64,000 nt of DNA from Nitrospira defluvii (lineage in GTDB: Bacteria; Nitrospirota; Nitrospiria; Nitrospirales; Nitrospiraceae), in NCBI GenBank assembly GCA_011525625.1, contig WYAX01000016.1, positions 248,001 through 312,000 of the forward strand, read 5' to 3'. The translations under genes and the position numbers were made by a program. Position 1 is the stretch's first letter, and the number at the start of each line of letters is the position of its first letter. Below the pieces are notes generated by a model that did no database searches, was not told the DNA's origin, and worked only from the letters and a program-made list of their open reading frames with translations. Positions 12,820-22,128 of the stretch are shown piece after piece.

Positions 12820-12987
12820 ATTCTGACAGGGTACGGTATGAGGTTGTGAATGGCGCCGTTGTCGATTCAGTGCCGACGAAATAGAACGACGACGAAAGAT
12901 TTGTCGAAGACAGACCGAAGCTGGAGGCAGGTGGAGTACGTGATGAGTCGCACCCTTTTTTACCTACGTGCAGACCACCCTATTGGT

Positions 12988-12993: not shown

Positions 12994-13083
12994 GCGCCCG
13001 AACGCGTGAGGCGGAACATTCCGGTTGGCCGCTATGTCTGTGATGCGAGCATGAGCCATTCGATTCAGAGGAGGAACCCGAGG

Positions 13084-16000
13084 ATGTCCACTCATTCTTT
13101 TCAGGGAAATAGGGCGCACCGCGATCTGCATTTCGATCTTCGTTGGTGTGGTCCGACCCATACGACGGAAGACTACACGCTGCACGTGGGCGGCCGGTCG
13201 CATCGCCTGGCCAGGCACACTCCGGACACGCTGGCCGCTTGTTCAGTAACGGGTACGCCGACGCACTTTGCGATGCAGGTGGCGGTACAGACCGACGCAC
13301 CCCAGTTCATCTATGTGACCGTCCCTCCCAAGGTCCCCAACGGTTTTCCCACGTTGTCGTCGGTCTGTATTCACACGGCGGACGACGCCGGCAGTTATGC
13401 CGTCGACGACGTGGCAAAAGCCGTGGTGTTCATGAATCCCTCGCTGACCATGCTGACCACCGCTCCGGCGCAAACGGTGCTTGGGTATATCGGCAACAAC
13501 AACAATCTCGAACCGCTGTCGTTTCTGATCTCAACCCTGGGGTCCGCATGGTGTCAAACAGTGGGAGTGGTTGATGCCGCCGGCCAACCCGTCCTCAAGC
13601 CGAACGGGACGCAGTTTTATACCTATGATCTACACCCGTCGATCATCACCGCGAGCGCGATGCCGAGCCGGCAGAGCAAGGCGCTGATCTACAGCGATGC
13701 GGCGCTTCAAGGCACGCGCTGGACAGTGCTGCCGGGAGTAAGTGTGCTCGACATGAACGCGCAGAACACCACCGCGGAAGCGTGGCCAAGGGCGAAGCCG
13801 GCCGGACCGGCCGGCAGGCAGCCACCCGGGAACCGCGACGGATACCACGTAGCGGTCCAGGACGGAGGCCCGAATTACGGTCTGTCCGTCGCGGTGAAAT
13901 CCTTGAGCGAGAACAATGGCAACATCGTCATCGATCTGACGGTCAGCAACAGCTACATTCGTCACACGTCAGTGTTCGTGAGTTTCTTACAGGCCGACGG
14001 TGGCACGCCTATTCCGGTGACGAACGACGCGTGGCTCAAACAGGTATTCGGCCTGTGCGCACCGTGGATCAGCGATTGTTTAAATTGGTTGCTGCAGAAC
14101 GGCCTGGACAGCAGCGCGTTGTTGGGCACCAACACGCTCAAGTTTCTGGGTTCGGTGGGTGCGGAGAGCACGTTTCTGGGCATTCCGGTCAAAGCGGCCA
14201 ACACGGAGTTCACCTTTGCCTTACCGAATAACGGCTCCGCGGGCAAGATCCGTATTCTGGTGGGGAGCCTTGGTGTGACGTCCGGCAACGACTGCGATCC
14301 GGTGGCGGCGTGGTTCGGGTTATCGCTGACCGCATTTATCGACCTGGCAGTTCCGACATTCGCACTGTTGCTTGCGGCGGGTGTGCAGACGAACGCTCTC
14401 TTCGACAAGATGTTCAAGGACGTGAGTGTCCTGTTGCCCATCGCCAGCAACGTGTATGCCTCGATCAAGGATCTCTTCACGGACCCATCCAAGGTGGGCA
14501 AGGACATCTCTTCGTTGGTTCTCACCCTCGGGAATGTCCTGGTGAAAAGTGTGCTCACGAAGCCGGACGTGCTCGCGTCGCTGGCAGCGTATTTCGGCAC
14601 CGAGGAGGCCGAGGAAGCCATTCCTTTCGTGGGTTGGGGCTTCAAGGTGCTGGCCATCGAGGCCACGGTGGAGCAGCTCGCACAGACTGTGGGCGAGGTC
14701 GTCGGCTCCCCGCGGGTGGTTGAATTCGATCTGCAGGTAACCATGGACGCGCAGATCACCGTGGCGCCGGAACAGGCGTTTCCGGACAATGCGAGTTCGT
14801 TCACGATCACGGCACAGTACACCGGAACTACGACGCGTACCTACTCCGGCACCATGCCACGCGACAAAGTGCCCGGCATCGTCGTGGACTGGAAAGACGT
14901 GCCGGTAGGCGGCAAGGTCAGCTTTGTGGTCGCGATGTTCGATACAAACGGATGGGGCGTGGGCAAGGGGCAGGCCGGTCCGTTCGACAACGTACTCGGC
15001 GGACACCCGGTCTTTACTGCCACCGTGACGGTGAAGCAGGAGTTGTATCCGTTGACGGCCGATACCATCTATCAACATAGGCAGCTGCTTCAATATCAGG
15101 GGGGATATCAGTGGGTGCCGGAAGCGCAGGCGCCCACTCAGACGGCGGCAAACTTGGGTACGGGGTCCGACGGCGGATTGGAGGGCCTAGGGAACATTAC
15201 GCTGACCGATGATCTCGGGGTGTTGGGATATGTCTGGGAGGCCTCGGGGCAGGGGATGCCGCCCCCCATGGGCGGCGGCGGGGGCACGCCTGAGCTCTAC
15301 ACTATGAGCAATCTCGGGTACCGACCGATTCCAGGCGGCGACCCCACACACTGGCCGGATGCTGGATACATGACCGCACCGGAGGGGTACTCCGGGGCGC
15401 CGATTCCGCTCTACGTGCGCACGGCGCCAGGCGCCGGGTCCAGCGCGCCGAGGTTTCTGTATCTCGATCCCAGCGGAGATAAGGACGGGGGCTATCACTT
15501 GCGCGAAGTCACGCCGGTAACGGATCAAGCGGTGCCCATGGGCGATGCTCGACGGCAATTCAACCTTGCCACAGGCAGGAGCTGGGGCCGGTTCGCGATA
15601 CTGCCCACCTCGATGGCGATTCACTCCAACGGGTATGTGGTCGCCGTGAATTCAAGCTGCGACCACTTGCTGATTCTCGCCCTGCCGACAGGGAGTTCAG
15701 CCGATGCCGATGCACCCTGGGCATCGGCTCCGCTCCAACCGGGCACGGCGCCGGGGAGACTGCTGGCGCCGGCTCTGGTGGCCATCCGTCCGGATCAAAC
15801 GATGCTGGTGCTGGAAGCAGGCAATCAACGCATCCAGGCGTTCAGCCGTGGAGGTCACCCCGTGCCGGTATTTTCTGCTAGGAAGCCGTCTTTCTGGTTC
15901 CCGCTCATCTCCCATGCCGCGCCGAATAAAACCCTGTACCTCTCCATGAGCGTGGATGTCGCCAATTACGCATTCGTTCTCAGTCAAGTCGGCAATGGGT

Positions 16001-18201
16001 ATGACGCCGGAGATTTCTATCTCGATGTCTACACCCCCACCGGTACGATTCTGTTCTCCCAGCAAGGCCTGAATGCCGCCGGCCTGACCGTGGATCTCTG
16101 GCGCAATCTGTACACGCTCAATTATCAACAAATCGCCGGACCGAGCGGCCGCCCGGAGCCGTCAATCAGCGAATACATTCCGTCGACTCCGAAAGTCGAG
16201 CCGCGAGCCTTGCAAGGAGACGCGGTGGCCGACCCGCCGCAAGTCGCCAGGTGGCGATTTTGGACGGAGGGTACCGGGTACGTGCAGCAGTTTCCTAATG
16301 GGTCAACAGGCGAATACGGTCCGGCCATTGTGGGGCTTTCGGACAAAGTCGACTACTGGGATATCTTCGATCTCGGCGGCGGGAATATCGCGCTGGGGAT
16401 CCAGCTGACCGACTCCGATGGCAAACTGGTCATGGCGTACTGGAATTCGCATTACGCCATGCCGGGCGGGGAAACCAAGGGCGGCATGCTCTTGTGGGAA
16501 AACGACATGGGCTTTGCCTCCAACAAGATTGGAGACGTACAAACGTTCAAGTTGATCAATATGGGGGCCGGGCGGTTCGCGCTTCAAATCACCGCAGGTC
16601 CGAATGCCGGCCAGTATCTCATGGGCCAGCAGGGCGGGTGGTATGTCTATGAATGGGGGTTTGGAAGCGGAAGCCTCTTCGCGATGCCACACGATGGGCC
16701 GCCATTGTCATTCGGGCTCTTGGCAGATTGCGATCAGCTTCCGATGCTGAAGATTACGCAGTCCGGCTACTTCCTTCAGCTTGGGGGCAAGGACCTCACC
16801 GGCTGCATGTTGAAAGACATGCGCCATTGCACGCTCGATGGCGCGACGCTGAGCGGAATCGCCACCCTGGCGCAGGCCGACTTTACCAGCGCCTCCCTTA
16901 AGAAAGCCGTCCTGTCCGGCCTGGACCTCAGCCACGCGCTGACCTGGAAGCAGGCTGACTTCACGGGCACGGATCTGAGCACGATCAAGAGCGCCGCGGG
17001 CGCGCATCTGGAAGGCGCCATCTTCAACGCCGCCACGCTTGGCCTGGTGTCCTACGCGGGTGCGCATCTTGCGGCGGCAAAATTCACGGTTGCCGGTGGA
17101 ATACCCGCCAACCTGACCGGCACAATCTTCACCGGCGCCGATCTCACCGGGGCTGATTTCACGGGCGCCACTCTCGTGGGTACCGACTTCCGCGGCGCCA
17201 TTCTGCATGGGACGATGTTCGATGGCTGCGATCTGACGCACGCCTTATTTGACAATGAACCGAACTTCACGCGTGCGACGACAGGGCGGACGACGTTCCA
17301 TGCGGCCGTGGTGCCGTTCTCCATCTTAGGAACAAACTGGACGTATTTGGACTTAACGTCAGCGACCATCACGGGCCTTCCCGATGCGATCCCCAAGTTG
17401 GTGGCCGATCAGGCGTTGCTTCCCGACGACTTCAATCTGCGCAATAAAGACTTCACCTGTTCCGGCGGCCCCGGCGCCTCGTTCCGAGGCACTCGCATGT
17501 ATGGTATTCAGCTGCAAGGCGCCAACCTGCAGGGAGCCCAGTTGCAAGGCGCGCTGCTCAAAAGCGCCAAGCTCGATGGGGCCAACCTGACCATGGCGGA
17601 CCTGACCGCCGCCTGGCTGATCGTTGAAACCGCCACACCGAGCACGCCGAAAGGTAAACTCGAGGCGGCCTCCCTCATTCAAACATTTTTGTTCAATACG
17701 GTGTTGGATCAAGCCCACTGCGACGGGGTGGATTTCACCGGTGCCATGTTCGCGACGAGTCTAGTCAGTACACAACCGGCCAGCGCCGAGAAGGCGTTCA
17801 TGAACGATGCCAAGTTTAATGATGCCTGGGTACTGGCGACGAATTTCAACGGCGCTCAGCTTTCAGGGGCTAATTTTGCCAACGCGCATCTGATCGGTGC
17901 CACGTTTCAGAACAGCGGATCGGTGCAAACCCAGTTGACTCCGTCGAATCGAGACGGGAGCGATGCGAGTAGCGCGCACGCCGACATCAGAGGGACCGAT
18001 TTCACCGGCGCCAACATGGACGGAATCGACATGATCGGGGCTATTGTCGGGGCCTCAGGCGGTTTCTTCGAGAGAAAATGTACAGGATATGACCACGTGA
18101 GTATCCCCGTGGCGTTCAACTACGGCCCGACACTGTTCGGCAATACGACGCCCAACACCAAGTGCCCCGACGGCAATTCCGGCCCCTGTCACGTCGCCTA
18201 A
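13084..18201 (+). CDS. Giant multidomain protein: unknown N-terminal region, NHL-like propeller, pentapeptide repeats (1705 aa)
   Basis: The start is the ATG at 13084 with GAGGAGG upstream; the frame extends back to 12850 but that part is unlike protein. No signal peptide. Residues 1-~230: unknown beta-rich domain. ~440-560: long hydrophobic/helical stretch (SLTAFIDLAVPTFALLLAAG). ~560-670: beta domain. ~830-1010: NHL/propeller-like repeats (RLLAPALVAIRPDQTMLVLE, GNQRIQAFSRGG). ~1080-1230: a beta region with FALQITAGPNAGQYLMG. ~1235-1650: many pentapeptide A(D/N)LxX units (TGADLTGADFTGATL, LQGANLQGAQLQGALL), interrupted twice by irregular segments. The C-terminal end has two Cys. The right-handed beta-helix of pentapeptide repeats usually mediates protein contacts. 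Role unknown. Confidence 0.8.
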   Translation: MSTHSFQGNRAHRDLHFDLRWCGPTHTTEDYTLHVGGRSHRLARHTPDTLAACSVTGTPTHFAMQVAVQTDAPQFIYVTVPPKVPNGFPTLSSVCIHTADDAGSYAVDDVAKAVVFMNPSLTMLTTAPAQTVLGYIGNNNNLEPLSFLISTLGSAWCQTVGVVDAAGQPVLKPNGTQFYTYDLHPSIITASAMPSRQSKALIYSDAALQGTRWTVLPGVSVLDMNAQNTTAEAWPRAKPAGPAGRQPPGNRDGYHVAVQDGGPNYGLSVAVKSLSENNGNIVIDLTVSNSYIRHTSVFVSFLQADGGTPIPVTNDAWLKQVFGLCAPWISDCLNWLLQNGLDSSALLGTNTLKFLGSVGAESTFLGIPVKAANTEFTFALPNNGSAGKIRILVGSLGVTSGNDCDPVAAWFGLSLTAFIDLAVPTFALLLAAGVQTNALFDKMFKDVSVLLPIASNVYASIKDLFTDPSKVGKDISSLVLTLGNVLVKSVLTKPDVLASLAAYFGTEEAEEAIPFVGWGFKVLAIEATVEQLAQTVGEVVGSPRVVEFDLQVTMDAQITVAPEQAFPDNASSFTITAQYTGTTTRTYSGTMPRDKVPGIVVDWKDVPVGGKVSFVVAMFDTNGWGVGKGQAGPFDNVLGGHPVFTATVTVKQELYPLTADTIYQHRQLLQYQGGYQWVPEAQAPTQTAANLGTGSDGGLEGLGNITLTDDLGVLGYVWEASGQGMPPPMGGGGGTPELYTMSNLGYRPIPGGDPTHWPDAGYMTAPEGYSGAPIPLYVRTAPGAGSSAPRFLYLDPSGDKDGGYHLREVTPVTDQAVPMGDARRQFNLATGRSWGRFAILPTSMAIHSNGYVVAVNSSCDHLLILALPTGSSADADAPWASAPLQPGTAPGRLLAPALVAIRPDQTMLVLEAGNQRIQAFSRGGHPVPVFSARKPSFWFPLISHAAPNKTLYLSMSVDVANYAFVLSQVGNGYDAGDFYLDVYTPTGTILFSQQGLNAAGLTVDLWRNLYTLNYQQIAGPSGRPEPSISEYIPSTPKVEPRALQGDAVADPPQVARWRFWTEGTGYVQQFPNGSTGEYGPAIVGLSDKVDYWDIFDLGGGNIALGIQLTDSDGKLVMAYWNSHYAMPGGETKGGMLLWENDMGFASNKIGDVQTFKLINMGAGRFALQITAGPNAGQYLMGQQGGWYVYEWGFGSGSLFAMPHDGPPLSFGLLADCDQLPMLKITQSGYFLQLGGKDLTGCMLKDMRHCTLDGATLSGIATLAQADFTSASLKKAVLSGLDLSHALTWKQADFTGTDLSTIKSAAGAHLEGAIFNAATLGLVSYAGAHLAAAKFTVAGGIPANLTGTIFTGADLTGADFTGATLVGTDFRGAILHGTMFDGCDLTHALFDNEPNFTRATTGRTTFHAAVVPFSILGTNWTYLDLTSATITGLPDAIPKLVADQALLPDDFNLRNKDFTCSGGPGASFRGTRMYGIQLQGANLQGAQLQGALLKSAKLDGANLTMADLTAAWLIVETATPSTPKGKLEAASLIQTFLFNTVLDQAHCDGVDFTGAMFATSLVSTQPASAEKAFMNDAKFNDAWVLATNFNGAQLSGANFANAHLIGATFQNSGSVQTQLTPSNRDGSDASSAHADIRGTDFTGANMDGIDMIGAIVGASGGFFERKCTGYDHVSIPVAFNYGPTLFGNTTPNTKCPDGNSGPCHVA

Positions 18202-18325: not shown

Positions 18326-19324
18326 CTACGAAACGGGAAATTTGGGGACATACTGCCGCTCGCCATCGGACGCCCACAAGCCATAGTGCCCTTCGGCGCC
18401 GTTCGGCCCTTGCCAGGGCGCGGCGGGCGGTACCGCCGCATTGCGATTGCTTTTCCACGCTTCATCGATCGCTTCGAAATAGTACGCGACGACTCGTCGC
18501 TGAAGGGACCACTGCCGGACGGCCTCGAAATAGGACCGAGCGTTCTCCACCGTGTTGATCGAATTATTAAAGCTGATCCCGGCCGAGGGCCAGCCGGTTT
18601 CACCGATCATCACGTCGCATTGTGGATTCACGGCGGCGACGGCGGCTGTGATGCGGTCGAACGCCCGGGTGACGCTGAGAAGGCTGTCTTGAATCGTCCC
18701 CGGAGGATTCGGCGGATACAGATTGCACAGAATGAAGTCGCAGTTGCGAACCAGCGTCTGGAGCGGGGCGAGGTACGGAGAGGCGGGATTCGTGAGCTGC
18801 CCAAAGGTCTGCGAGCGCACACCCACTCTCAATCCGAGTGTCTTCGCGGCCGGCTTATGGGCGGTGAGCATGGCCGTGACTGCGTCGGTCGTCGCCGTAT
18901 CGGTGACATATTCGTTCGTGAAGACGAGGGACGTCACGGTGTGTGGAAACACGGCGTTGGCTTCCTGCGCCGCGGTACAGGCCGCGGCGATTTCCGCCTG
19001 CTGCAGTTCAGGAGTCGACTGCTGATACATACCTTGCGAGACTTCGATGACCCGCTGCCCTCGTCGCTGATTCAGGAGCGCGGCCGCGCCGGCGACCCGG
19101 CAATTGGAATCGACCTGATTCCACGGGGTGCCGGGAGGATAATAGCCCGCATAACCCATGCTATAGGTACTGATCTTCTCGAACGAGGAGGCGATGGTCT
19201 CGAGCATGCGCACAATGTCTTCCTGGCTGTATGAATTCCACGGAGGCGTGGACGCGCGAGGCGATGTTCCGCTCCAGGCTCCGACATAGGGGCTGAATGC
19301 GACGCCGAGATAGTTCGTTGGCAT
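18326..19324 (-). CDS. Glycoside hydrolase family 17-like protein (beta-1,3-glucanase fold)
   Basis: 332 residues; GGGAGG precedes the ATG. The start YLGVAFSPYVG, the Asn-Glu acid/base motif in LVFTNEYVT and the nucleophile motif MIGETGWPSAG are the GH17 signatures. They are followed by AYYFEAIDEAWKSN and GHYGLWASDGERQYV, typical of the C-terminal end of the TIM barrel. The fold acts on beta-1,3-glucans by hydrolysis or transglycosylation. No signal peptide is visible, which is unusual for a glucanase. It starts 14 bases after the stop of the serine hydrolase gene, so the two are likely one transcript. Confidence 0.85.
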   Translation of the reverse strand: MPTNYLGVAFSPYVGAWSGTSPRASTPPWNSYSQEDIVRMLETIASSFEKISTYSMGYAGYYPPGTPWNQVDSNCRVAGAAALLNQRRGQRVIEVSQGMYQQSTPELQQAEIAAACTAAQEANAVFPHTVTSLVFTNEYVTDTATTDAVTAMLTAHKPAAKTLGLRVGVRSQTFGQLTNPASPYLAPLQTLVRNCDFILCNLYPPNPPGTIQDSLLSVTRAFDRITAAVAAVNPQCDVMIGETGWPSAGISFNNSINTVENARSYFEAVRQWSLQRRVVAYYFEAIDEAWKSNRNAAVPPAAPWQGPNGAEGHYGLWASDGERQYVPKFPVS

Positions 19325-19338
19325 AAGTCCTCCCTGAG

Positions 19339-20730
19339 TTAGCGGGACGCCGTTCGGGTGAATGTGCCCAATCCTTCCCGATCCAAATTTTCAACCGTTA
19401 CGTGGGTCGCAGCACCCGTTGCGCCGATGGTGAACGTGACACCGCTCAACCCGACGGCGTTTTCACCGGTCGTGGCATAGTAAAACGTGTTGTGGTTATA
19501 GTGGGTCAGCGAAAACTCCGTGGGCGTCAGTCCTTGTCGCATGGTGAGGGCGCGGCCGCGCCTGAGGATGTCGAGCGGCCCGTAGAGATCGTTGAGGTAC
19601 CGGCCTGCGTAACATGTATGTGCCAACGCGTGGACAGGCGCAGGAAGACGTGCGGCGTAGTCGATCGGGCTATGCCCGTCCTGTGCCATTTCTTCAAAGA
19701 TCGGTCGAAACCGAGCGAGCCAATCCTGTGTGACCCTGCCATAGGTCACCAGCTCGACGAAACTCTTTGCCAACGCCTCAGGGACACCGATCGGTTGGCC
19801 GTTGGTGAGGACGACGATTCCCAGCTGCTCGGCAGGCAGGAGAGCGACGGCGGTGGCGGCGCCCAGCTCGAAGGCACCGGAATGTCCGAGGGTGACCCGC
19901 CCCAGTTCGTCGTAATTCACATTCCATCCCAATCCGTAGAACCCGTATCGGGCGTCGATCGGTTGAGACGGGGTATTCACCATATGGGGTCGATAGGTTT
20001 CCGCCAGTGCCTTCTCCGCAATGAGGGGGCGGCCGTTGTAGGTGCCTCGATTCAAATGTAAGCGCATCCATCGCGCCATGTCGGTGACTGTCGAGCTGGC
20101 ACCGCCTGCCGGGGCTTGCGCGTCGGGCCTACGCTGATAGCGAGCCCTCCAGCGGCCGTCGATCAACACATGGCCGCGCGCGCGGTTGGCCCGCGCGAGG
20201 AAGTCGGCCAGACGCGAGCTTGTCGCGTGCATGCCTAATTGTTTATACAACCGTTCCGAGGAGAGCGCTTCCCATGACTGCCCGGCGGCGTTGGCCGCAG
20301 CAACGGCTCCTGCCGTCAAGCCGAAATTCGTGTAGGCGTGCTGCGAACGGAATAGATTGTGTGTGGGAATGTGACGCAAGCGGCGCAGAATTTCCTCACG
20401 ACCATACCCCATGTCTTCGAGCTGGTCGCCCGCATGTTCGGGTAATCCGCTCCGGTGTGAACACATGTCGCGAATGGTGAGCGAGGCCGTGATGGACGCA
20501 TCGTGCATGCGAAAGTCCGGACTGTGATCTACCAGGCGGTCGTCCCACGTCACGATCTTGTCGGAGACCAATCCGGCGATGACGGTGGACGCGAGCGGCT
20601 TGGACAGCGACGCGAGTTGAAACACAGTGTCCGGGTCTACTCTGGCTGGTTTGCCAATTTCCCGGCGGCCAAATCCCTTGGCATCTATCATGCGGTCCTG
20701 GTGGACGACGGCGACGGCTGCTCCCGGCAC
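19339..20730 (-). CDS. Class C beta-lactamase-like serine hydrolase, probably 5'-truncated
   Basis: 463 residues. Catalytic motifs: ASLSKP (SxxK, Ser near residue 42), YTNFG (YxN), and LGHSGAFELG in place of KTG. The C-terminal ~110 residues form an extra domain as in family S12 esterases/peptidases. The reading frame begins at a GTG exactly at VPGAAVAVVHQDR. Family members normally have a ~20-residue helix before this point, often with a signal peptide. Here an in-frame TAA lies six bases upstream, followed almost at once by the end of the foreign-looking neighbour. I infer a lost 5' end; translation from GTG remains possible. Confidence 0.75.
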   Translation of the reverse strand: MPGAAVAVVHQDRMIDAKGFGRREIGKPARVDPDTVFQLASLSKPLASTVIAGLVSDKIVTWDDRLVDHSPDFRMHDASITASLTIRDMCSHRSGLPEHAGDQLEDMGYGREEILRRLRHIPTHNLFRSQHAYTNFGLTAGAVAAANAAGQSWEALSSERLYKQLGMHATSSRLADFLARANRARGHVLIDGRWRARYQRRPDAQAPAGGASSTVTDMARWMRLHLNRGTYNGRPLIAEKALAETYRPHMVNTPSQPIDARYGFYGLGWNVNYDELGRVTLGHSGAFELGAATAVALLPAEQLGIVVLTNGQPIGVPEALAKSFVELVTYGRVTQDWLARFRPIFEEMAQDGHSPIDYAARLPAPVHALAHTCYAGRYLNDLYGPLDILRRGRALTMRQGLTPTEFSLTHYNHNTFYYATTGENAVGLSGVTFTIGATGAATHVTVENLDREGLGTFTRTASR

Positions 20731-20781: not shown

Positions 20782-21903
20782 CTAGTCAAAAGTGCTCCAC
20801 AGTTCGCGGCACTCGTCGGAAAGCGCCGCGGACTTAAATTGCCTTTGGATATCGCGATGAGAAATCCACATAGCAGGATCGAAGGGCAAACTCCCAGGTT
20901 GGTAACCGTTAAACTGAGTTGAGCGACTTGGATAATCTCCAGGCCAGTTTGCTTTTGGTTGATTGAGCAATGAGGGGGTGCTCCTCCTCGTTTGCCATGC
21001 CGTTACAAGTTCAGGACAAAGTTTTCTGACAACACTGATGGAGCTGTCCAATGTTCCGCGCATTGTCGCTTCCGCGTGCTCAGTAAGTACTGGCGGTCTG
21101 GTGTTGTCTATGAAAGCCTCAATTTGGGACCGGCAAGGGTCGCTCGGAAGGTGTTCAGCCGTCATCGCCCGCGGGATCACTTTTCCATCTGGCCCTAGCA
21201 GATGGGGCTGACGAGGGATGACTTGGTTTATGTTAATACGTCGACCTCTATGGGTCGCCATGTTCCGAAAGTCAGTGACCCATTCTACCCATCCCAACGG
21301 CCCAGCTTCCGAAATTGCCCGATCTAACATGCCAAGAAACGTGGATTGTATTGGGTGGGTGGCGATTCGAAGCGCTTCTTGGGCACCCTTCAGATCGGCA
21401 TACTGAATATTTTTCGGCAGAGCCAAAACGCCGATGACCGATGCTCCAAGGCAGTCAAGAGCGGCCACCACAGATCGGAAGAACCCTACAGCATGTAGCG
21501 TTGCTAAACGACGTGCAAGATCATCATTTGGGCATTTCCTGGGTGGAACGTTGACAGAAATTTGACCATGCGGCCCAACGTTCACACAATCTGCCAGAAA
21601 GTCACTCTCTTTGTCCCAGTTGTCAATCGCTTCGAGGAGATGAAGCCCAGCCTCACTAAGATTCTGTCGGATGCCTCGGACGCATTCGAGGAGATAGTGA
21701 CTAATCAGTATGCGTCGACTCGTCCCTGGATGAGGTGCCCACCAGCTGACCCCGTAGTTTGTGTCGTCAAGGTCATTGAAAATTTCGCGGTAAAGAGTTT
21801 CAACTTCGGGAACATTGACACCTATTGCTTGCGGAAAGGCCAATTCAGGGTCCTCTCCCGCCCCGAAAGGTCTTGTAAGGCTACCAAGATCAGTCGTCCT
21901 CAT
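20782..21903 (-). CDS. Unknown helical protein with HEPN-like RX4H motif
   Basis: 373 residues from the ATG at 21903, with GGAAGGGAG five bases upstream; a GTG two codons earlier is less likely. The sequence is mostly alpha-helical without signal or membrane segments. The segment WVEWVTDFRNMATHRGRR contains RNMATH, the RX4H pattern of HEPN nucleases, inside a helix-like context and followed by basic residues. HEPN proteins are common in toxin-antitoxin and anti-phage systems. By eye the base composition is more AT-rich than the neighbours, and the gene's 3' end abuts the truncated serine hydrolase, which suggests acquisition. The family assignment is tentative. Confidence 0.55.
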   Translation of the reverse strand: MRTTDLGSLTRPFGAGEDPELAFPQAIGVNVPEVETLYREIFNDLDDTNYGVSWWAPHPGTSRRILISHYLLECVRGIRQNLSEAGLHLLEAIDNWDKESDFLADCVNVGPHGQISVNVPPRKCPNDDLARRLATLHAVGFFRSVVAALDCLGASVIGVLALPKNIQYADLKGAQEALRIATHPIQSTFLGMLDRAISEAGPLGWVEWVTDFRNMATHRGRRININQVIPRQPHLLGPDGKVIPRAMTAEHLPSDPCRSQIEAFIDNTRPPVLTEHAEATMRGTLDSSISVVRKLCPELVTAWQTRRSTPSLLNQPKANWPGDYPSRSTQFNGYQPGSLPFDPAMWISHRDIQRQFKSAALSDECRELWSTFD

Positions 21904-22128
21904 ATGCACTCCCTTCCAAGTTCTTGAGTTATTGTCTCATCGTTTTTTTTCGCGCTAGGTTCATCGTGCCAGGTCTTCTGTTGTTCGCTTGTGAAAGATT
22001 CTAGTATTTCGCACAACGCGAGCACAGGGAATGAGCGGACTTACCCCTCACTCTTGTGTTGCGAGCAAGGAGCGCGACCTGCGTTCTCTTTTTGATTTCT
22101 TGGAAAGTCATTGTCCTAAAGGTCGGGT

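Follow-up and report, generated by a model that had tools for sequence, protein, structure and literature searches.

What protein results when a propeller and a long pentapeptide array are carried on one chain of 1705 residues, and how might such a chain have arisen? This question is raised by a gene of Nitrospira defluvii located at 13084-18201 (+) of the window, by which we mean the whole stretch of 64,000 nucleotides of DNA analysed here. An earlier note on this DNA described a single open frame and proposed a scaffold or a non-classically exported surface protein. Below we describe the two halves of the protein, their separate counterparts in other bacteria, and the genes that surround them.

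Reading frame and composition of the protein

The gene translates without interruption over 1705 codons plus a stop, as the earlier note had stated. The same frame stays open in the 5' direction as far as an ATG at 12850, an alternative longer start that would give 1783 aa. We consider the ATG at 13084 to be the likelier start because a Shine-Dalgarno-like AGGAGG (13069-13074, +) is found 9 nt ahead of it and because leaderless relatives start at the same LHFDL motif that lies near the start of the window protein. We looked for an N-terminal signal in the window protein and found none, in agreement with the earlier claim that the signal peptide is absent. The idea that a signal peptide had been missed through a wrong start was rejected: proteins of the leaderless clade share this starting motif and have no signal, and none is present in the extended upstream frame.

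Residues 1-1035, which we call the core, comprise an N-terminal domain, beta-sandwiches, a hydrophobic helical middle and a six-bladed NHL-type propeller. The structure of residues 1-1049 was predicted from an alignment of 33 sequences (mean pLDDT 75.8, pTM 0.76); this alignment spans the full length of the core, and its members share the N-terminal, middle and propeller parts of the window protein. The prediction starts with an alpha/beta domain at residues about 10-210 that includes LHFDL (13111-13713, +; pLDDT mostly 75-93) and has no family model. It is followed by a beta-sandwich (residues 255-395) and the hydrophobic helical middle (residues 406-541), the two together at 13846-14706 (+), and by a second beta-sandwich at residues 545-650 (14716-15033, +). 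The middle is poorly modelled, with a pLDDT of about 50. The hydrophobic character that had been ascribed to it holds: the window protein has a single TM-like peak in its core, at residues about 406-541, and all 33 homologues are hydrophobic there. Likewise, the N-terminal domain that could not be named before continues to lack a name, as residues 1-655 of the 33 members gave no Pfam or NCBIfam model except for Tat signals and single odd matches.

The last part of the core, residues 656-1036 (15049-16191, +), is the predicted propeller. A fold search with the whole core model returned a list filled by propeller matches, and the predicted structure of residues 656-1036 matches solved NHL six-bladed propellers with Z of 18-22. 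The family profile matches NHL structures at 3e-23 (Thin NHL). At the level of single-family models, PF01436 from Pfam has no match in the window protein and reaches E 0.01 or better in 4 of the 33 relatives, and the ScyF model is matched at this threshold by 12 of 33 family members. The NHL-like repeats reported earlier are thus upheld by fold (Z about 21) and by family profile, but not by Pfam, which makes no call in the window protein. The six-bladed propeller is shared with Brat, Thin, TRIM2/3/71, the PknD sensor domain and ScyF; in contrast to these NHL proteins, the propeller here forms the end of a protein of 1000 residues, of which the first 650 have no model match.

Residues about 1054-1705 correspond to a separate protein type consisting of a beta domain and a long pentapeptide beta-helix. 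The beta-rich domain (residues 1054-1220; 16243-16743, +) is delimited by alignment and by a predicted structure of low model confidence. The beta-helix (residues 1221-1705; 16744-18198, +) ends in a conserved CPDG..GPC motif. PF00805 is the only Pfam family found in the window protein, with seven stretches at 3.7e-35 and 119.5 bits against a cut-off of 20.2. We count 19 tandem steps of five residues; 2000 shuffles gave 0.9 on average and 5 at most. In the predicted structure, residues 1221-1705 form a single long square beta-helix, most of which has a pLDDT over 90, and Foldseek places HetL, MfpA, AlbG, Qnr, other pentapeptide repeat proteins and designed pentapeptide solenoids among its likenesses. 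The array had been described as broken by non-repeat segments. The Pfam match and the shuffle test bear out the array itself, and the interruptions are real and conserved in relatives; the modelled helix continues, at high confidence, across almost all of them. The window protein is therefore a member of the pentapeptide repeat superfamily as defined by PF00805, at least eight contiguous repeats and a square beta-helix. A second pentapeptide-rich frame of 502 aa is located elsewhere in the same genome (G000:C3:455704-456774, L002-L004).

The right-handed square beta-helix of five-residue repeats is common to the PF00805 proteins HetL, Qnr, MfpA and HglK. What sets the window protein apart is the length of about 485 residues, the conserved insertions, the conserved C-terminal motif and the junction to a core protein, and no known member fits the whole. 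Matches in sequence and fold include Qnr, MfpA and AlbG and raise the idea of a gyrase-protecting DNA mimic of this type fused to a sensor. We find this very improbable, since all NCBIfam Qnr and MfpA models score far under their cut-offs (Qnr 44.4 against 240 bits, MfpA 37.7 against 360), the rod is more than twice the length of Qnr, and a large clade of relatives exports the pentapeptide partner out of reach of gyrase.

The two-gene cassette and its fused form

To find relatives, we scanned the core alignment against 84,980 species genomes, resulting in 42 loci of which about 39 are true relatives. They are distributed over Bacillota, Pseudomonadota, Myxococcota, Acidobacteriota, Thermodesulfobacteriota, Nitrospirota, Bacteroidota and Cyanobacteriota. 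At least seven phyla contribute to the 32 relatives with long enough flanks, and in every one of these relatives a long pentapeptide ORF is found no more than about 3 kb from the core ORF and on its strand; the cyanobacterial copy lies at a contig end and is outside the 32 judged for adjacency. The pentapeptide ORF may come before or after the core ORF, and some lineages have one to three small genes between the two. We define this pair as the core/pentapeptide cassette. The window protein contains a core by the same definition, with its partner fused instead of adjacent.

The core ORFs of the relatives end after the propeller, save for tails of up to about 75 residues, while the window protein continues for 667 residues. 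Its closest relatives are five Paenibacillus, 44-46 % identical in both halves, and residues 1054-1705 are up to 46 % identical to pentapeptide partners. The cassettes of P. kobensis, P. curdlanolyticus, P. lupini and P. glycanilyticus resemble the window gene in this identity, in the order of the halves and in the absence of signal peptides, but consist of two genes overlapping by a few bases where the window has one. The overlap is 4 nt (ATGA) or 1 nt (TAATG) in L039, L047, L050 and L051; in the fifth Paenibacillus (L040) the pentapeptide start is ambiguous. Gene overlaps of a few nucleotides are a usual sign of coupled translation. Both P. kobensis and P. curdlanolyticus carry a further, more distant cassette as the second in the genome (L072/L073). 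Separately, 415-aa proteins of Paenibacillus look Gly-rich (GGNGG) rather than like enzymes.

The fusion joint is at residues 1034-1053 (16183-16242, +), where the alignment has the end of the core running into the start of the pentapeptide protein and where Paenibacillus has a stop and a start. Every other relative keeps two genes, and the earlier note had named an assembly fusion of two genes as a finding that would overturn its reading. Two genes are indeed fused, but an ORF of the sister species G001 (L010:6275-8434), whose genome was assembled independently into a single contig, continues across this joint as well, at 80 % nucleotide identity. Because this is an independent genome of another species, we give an assembly artefact almost no probability. 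Instead, two neighbouring genes, translationally coupled, have fused naturally and in frame, a state seen only in the window and in G001. In G001 the copy is broken: codons 1-480 are lost, with a transposase gene in their place (L010:9281-10471, -), and single-base indels shift the frame. Sequencing errors may account for some of these indels, but hardly for the missing 5' part. Between the window and G001, dN/dS is about 0.2 (0.13 for the core, 0.35 for the joint domain and 0.23 for the pentapeptide part), and the fused gene carries the mark of past purifying selection.

In a tree of cores, the window core groups with those of Paenibacillus at 100/100, apart from the other Nitrospira copies. 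By the tree and the alignments, the window gene is the fusion of a cassette that moved between distant lineages; this transfer was not recent, judging by the long branch of the window core.

The architecture as a whole had not been recognised in the earlier note and this impression stands. We found no matching model for it in Pfam, NCBIfam, PHROGs or PADLOC, the last three adding nothing beyond the repeats, and a search of the literature available to us for a propeller plus pentapeptide gene pair returned no report. A phage origin was rejected, as no relative is present in viral contigs and PHROGs matches the repeats only. An anti-phage defence system was also rejected, with no PADLOC match at E 0.01 for seven proteins.

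Neighbouring genes and localisation

Two genes face the fusion. The nearer one (18326-19324, -) encodes a GH17 protein of 332 aa with 39.4 bits to PF00332 against a cut-off of 28.2 and both catalytic-type glutamates: the one in GE242TGWPS was aligned to a GH17 glucanosyltransferase structure, and that of NE138 was seen in sequence only. On the Pfam score and the two glutamates, we assign the gene to GH17. The next gene (19339-20730, -) encodes a serine hydrolase of the beta-lactamase/esterase family (PF00144 plus DUF3471). Directly upstream of it is a 375-aa ORF (20782-21909, -) with no Pfam or NCBIfam match. By eye, similar-looking N-termini (DLQRA.E..E.ALKRGDARA) are present in L084:6290-8140 (+), beside a hydrolase gene in another genome of the family (G180), and in L024:3754-5031 (+), beside an acidobacterial core gene.

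The earlier note had supposed a link between the long gene and this facing pair. The same two genes enclose a cassette in the congener G007, where the order on one strand is hydrolase, Gly-rich beta-helix lipoprotein, pentapeptide protein, core and GH17. Compared to the window, the G007 hydrolase is 66 % and the GH17 73 % identical, while the cassettes are only about 28 % alike and belong to different subfamilies. We followed the co-occurrence of the GH17 gene, as the earlier note had suggested: of 175 genomes in the family, 3 have a close GH17, which always adjoins the hydrolase and in two cases an intact cassette as well. The third, G180, lacks the cassette, and its hydrolase has an internal deletion. 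In G001 we found no GH17, and a different beta-lactamase-family gene adjoins the broken fusion copy. The supposed link thus holds, and gene order ties the cassette to the hydrolase and GH17 genes in Nitrospira. Compared to its G007 orthologue, the window hydrolase lacks about 219 residues at the N-terminus, which hold the lipoprotein signal and the beginning of the domain. A hydrolase without a lipoprotein signal fits a leaderless cassette and equally fits decay.

It is conceivable that the fusion is a relic, namely a cassette acquired horizontally that has lost the stop codon and stands under no present selection beside a decaying hydrolase-GH17 pair. The core is found in only 3 of the 29 genomes of the genus; the sister copy with its lost codons, adjoining transposase gene and frameshifts, the 5'-truncated window hydrolase and the state of G180 all agree with this idea. 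We nonetheless judge it unlikely, given that the window frame is open over all its codons, the joint is in frame in both species, the dN/dS values are low in all three parts and the AGGAGG ribosome site is still present. The truncated hydrolase and the broken sister copy may mean that the locus is decaying.

Localisation signals divide the relatives into two groups. The core of one large clade is marked for export by a Tat or lipoprotein signal, and its pentapeptide partner by a Sec or lipoprotein signal. The window protein belongs to the other clade, where neither of the two has a signal. Our signal rule is simple: it missed evident Tat signals in L023 and L049, which were read by eye, and flags internal stretches in L027, L038 and L055. 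Wherever the signals are readable, both products appear to share a compartment, and leaderless cores pair with leaderless partners in both Gram-positive and Gram-negative hosts.

This pairing bears on the surface protein proposed earlier. A leaderless protein exported by an unrecognised route, as a surface adhesin or matrix protein, would be in keeping with the export of the other clade by Tat, by Sec or as lipoproteins and with glycan hydrolases as neighbours. The consistent absence of signals from both partners in hosts of either Gram type argues the other way, and no secretion gene was seen recurring beside leaderless cassettes. We hold such export to be improbable, and the claim of a non-classically exported surface protein finds no support, the clade of the window protein being without signals in both partners.

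A putative binding scaffold

Matching localisation signals, adjacency and the fusion together make a physical partnership likely, and we think that the core and pentapeptide proteins are very probably partners working as one unit. The fusion would then be the one-chain version of a complex formed by the two products. We take the core as a binding protein and not an enzyme because its invariant residues are mainly Gly, Pro and aromatic; a search of the core alignment for an invariant His or Cys found none. The complex would be a non-enzymatic binding scaffold, with the propeller and the beta-helix as binding surfaces and the hydrophobic helices of the core making acyl or membrane contact. We consider this scaffold role an even call; as a guess from the earlier note it was fair, while its surface export is the part that did not hold. 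Overall, the explanation that we favour, with some confidence, is the natural fusion of a two-gene cassette into a two-part binding scaffold.

We hypothesize that the neighbouring enzymes make or trim an acylated or glycan product and that the complex handles it. Single-module type I polyketide synthases (PKS, about 1530-1870 aa) are found directly beside leaderless cassettes or cores in L065, L067, L068, L071 and L076, from Paenibacillus, Mucilaginibacter and the cyanobacterium Hormoscilla, and thus from three phyla. In a clostridial MAG, a gene for a lipid-binding protein of the LBP/BPI/CETP (TULIP) type (L056:11440-13101, +) is located between the core and pentapeptide genes. A GH16 enzyme faces the cassette in two Paenibacillus (L039:12582-13832, -, with a ricin-type lectin, and L051:12363-13607, -), an arrangement that parallels the facing GH17 of the window. 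Across lineages, the enzymes beside cassettes vary from hydrolase and GH17 to PKS, GH16, amide hydrolase or nothing obvious. This variation counts against our proposal and makes the ligand guesswork; an acyl or glycan product, suggested by the neighbour genes, is possible but doubtful.

A PKS makes the lipid of heterocyst glycolipids. The placement of these glycolipids in heterocyst walls depends on the pentapeptide protein HglK (PMC8145042). The likeness to our cassettes, by description only, is a pentapeptide protein in both and the single-module PKS that adjoins some cassettes. We know of no propeller partner for HglK. More doubtful still than the ligand is a wider idea, in which the cassette would be an undescribed, phylum-crossing two-protein machine, in exported and cytoplasmic forms, that receives and deposits acyl or polyketide-glycan products, with the window gene as its one-chain form.

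Pentapeptide repeat proteins number some 39,000 sequences, nearly all of unknown function (2021 review, PMC8145042). Here a long branch of these proteins is tied to a fixed partner by consistent adjacency and one natural fusion, and the first 650 residues of this partner represent a protein family without a Pfam or NCBIfam model. The pair is a concrete object for expression, co-purification and structure, by which the ligand question of a pentapeptide protein becomes directly testable. The fusion suggests that the two partners, one shaped like a propeller and the other a long square rod, are very probably one working unit.
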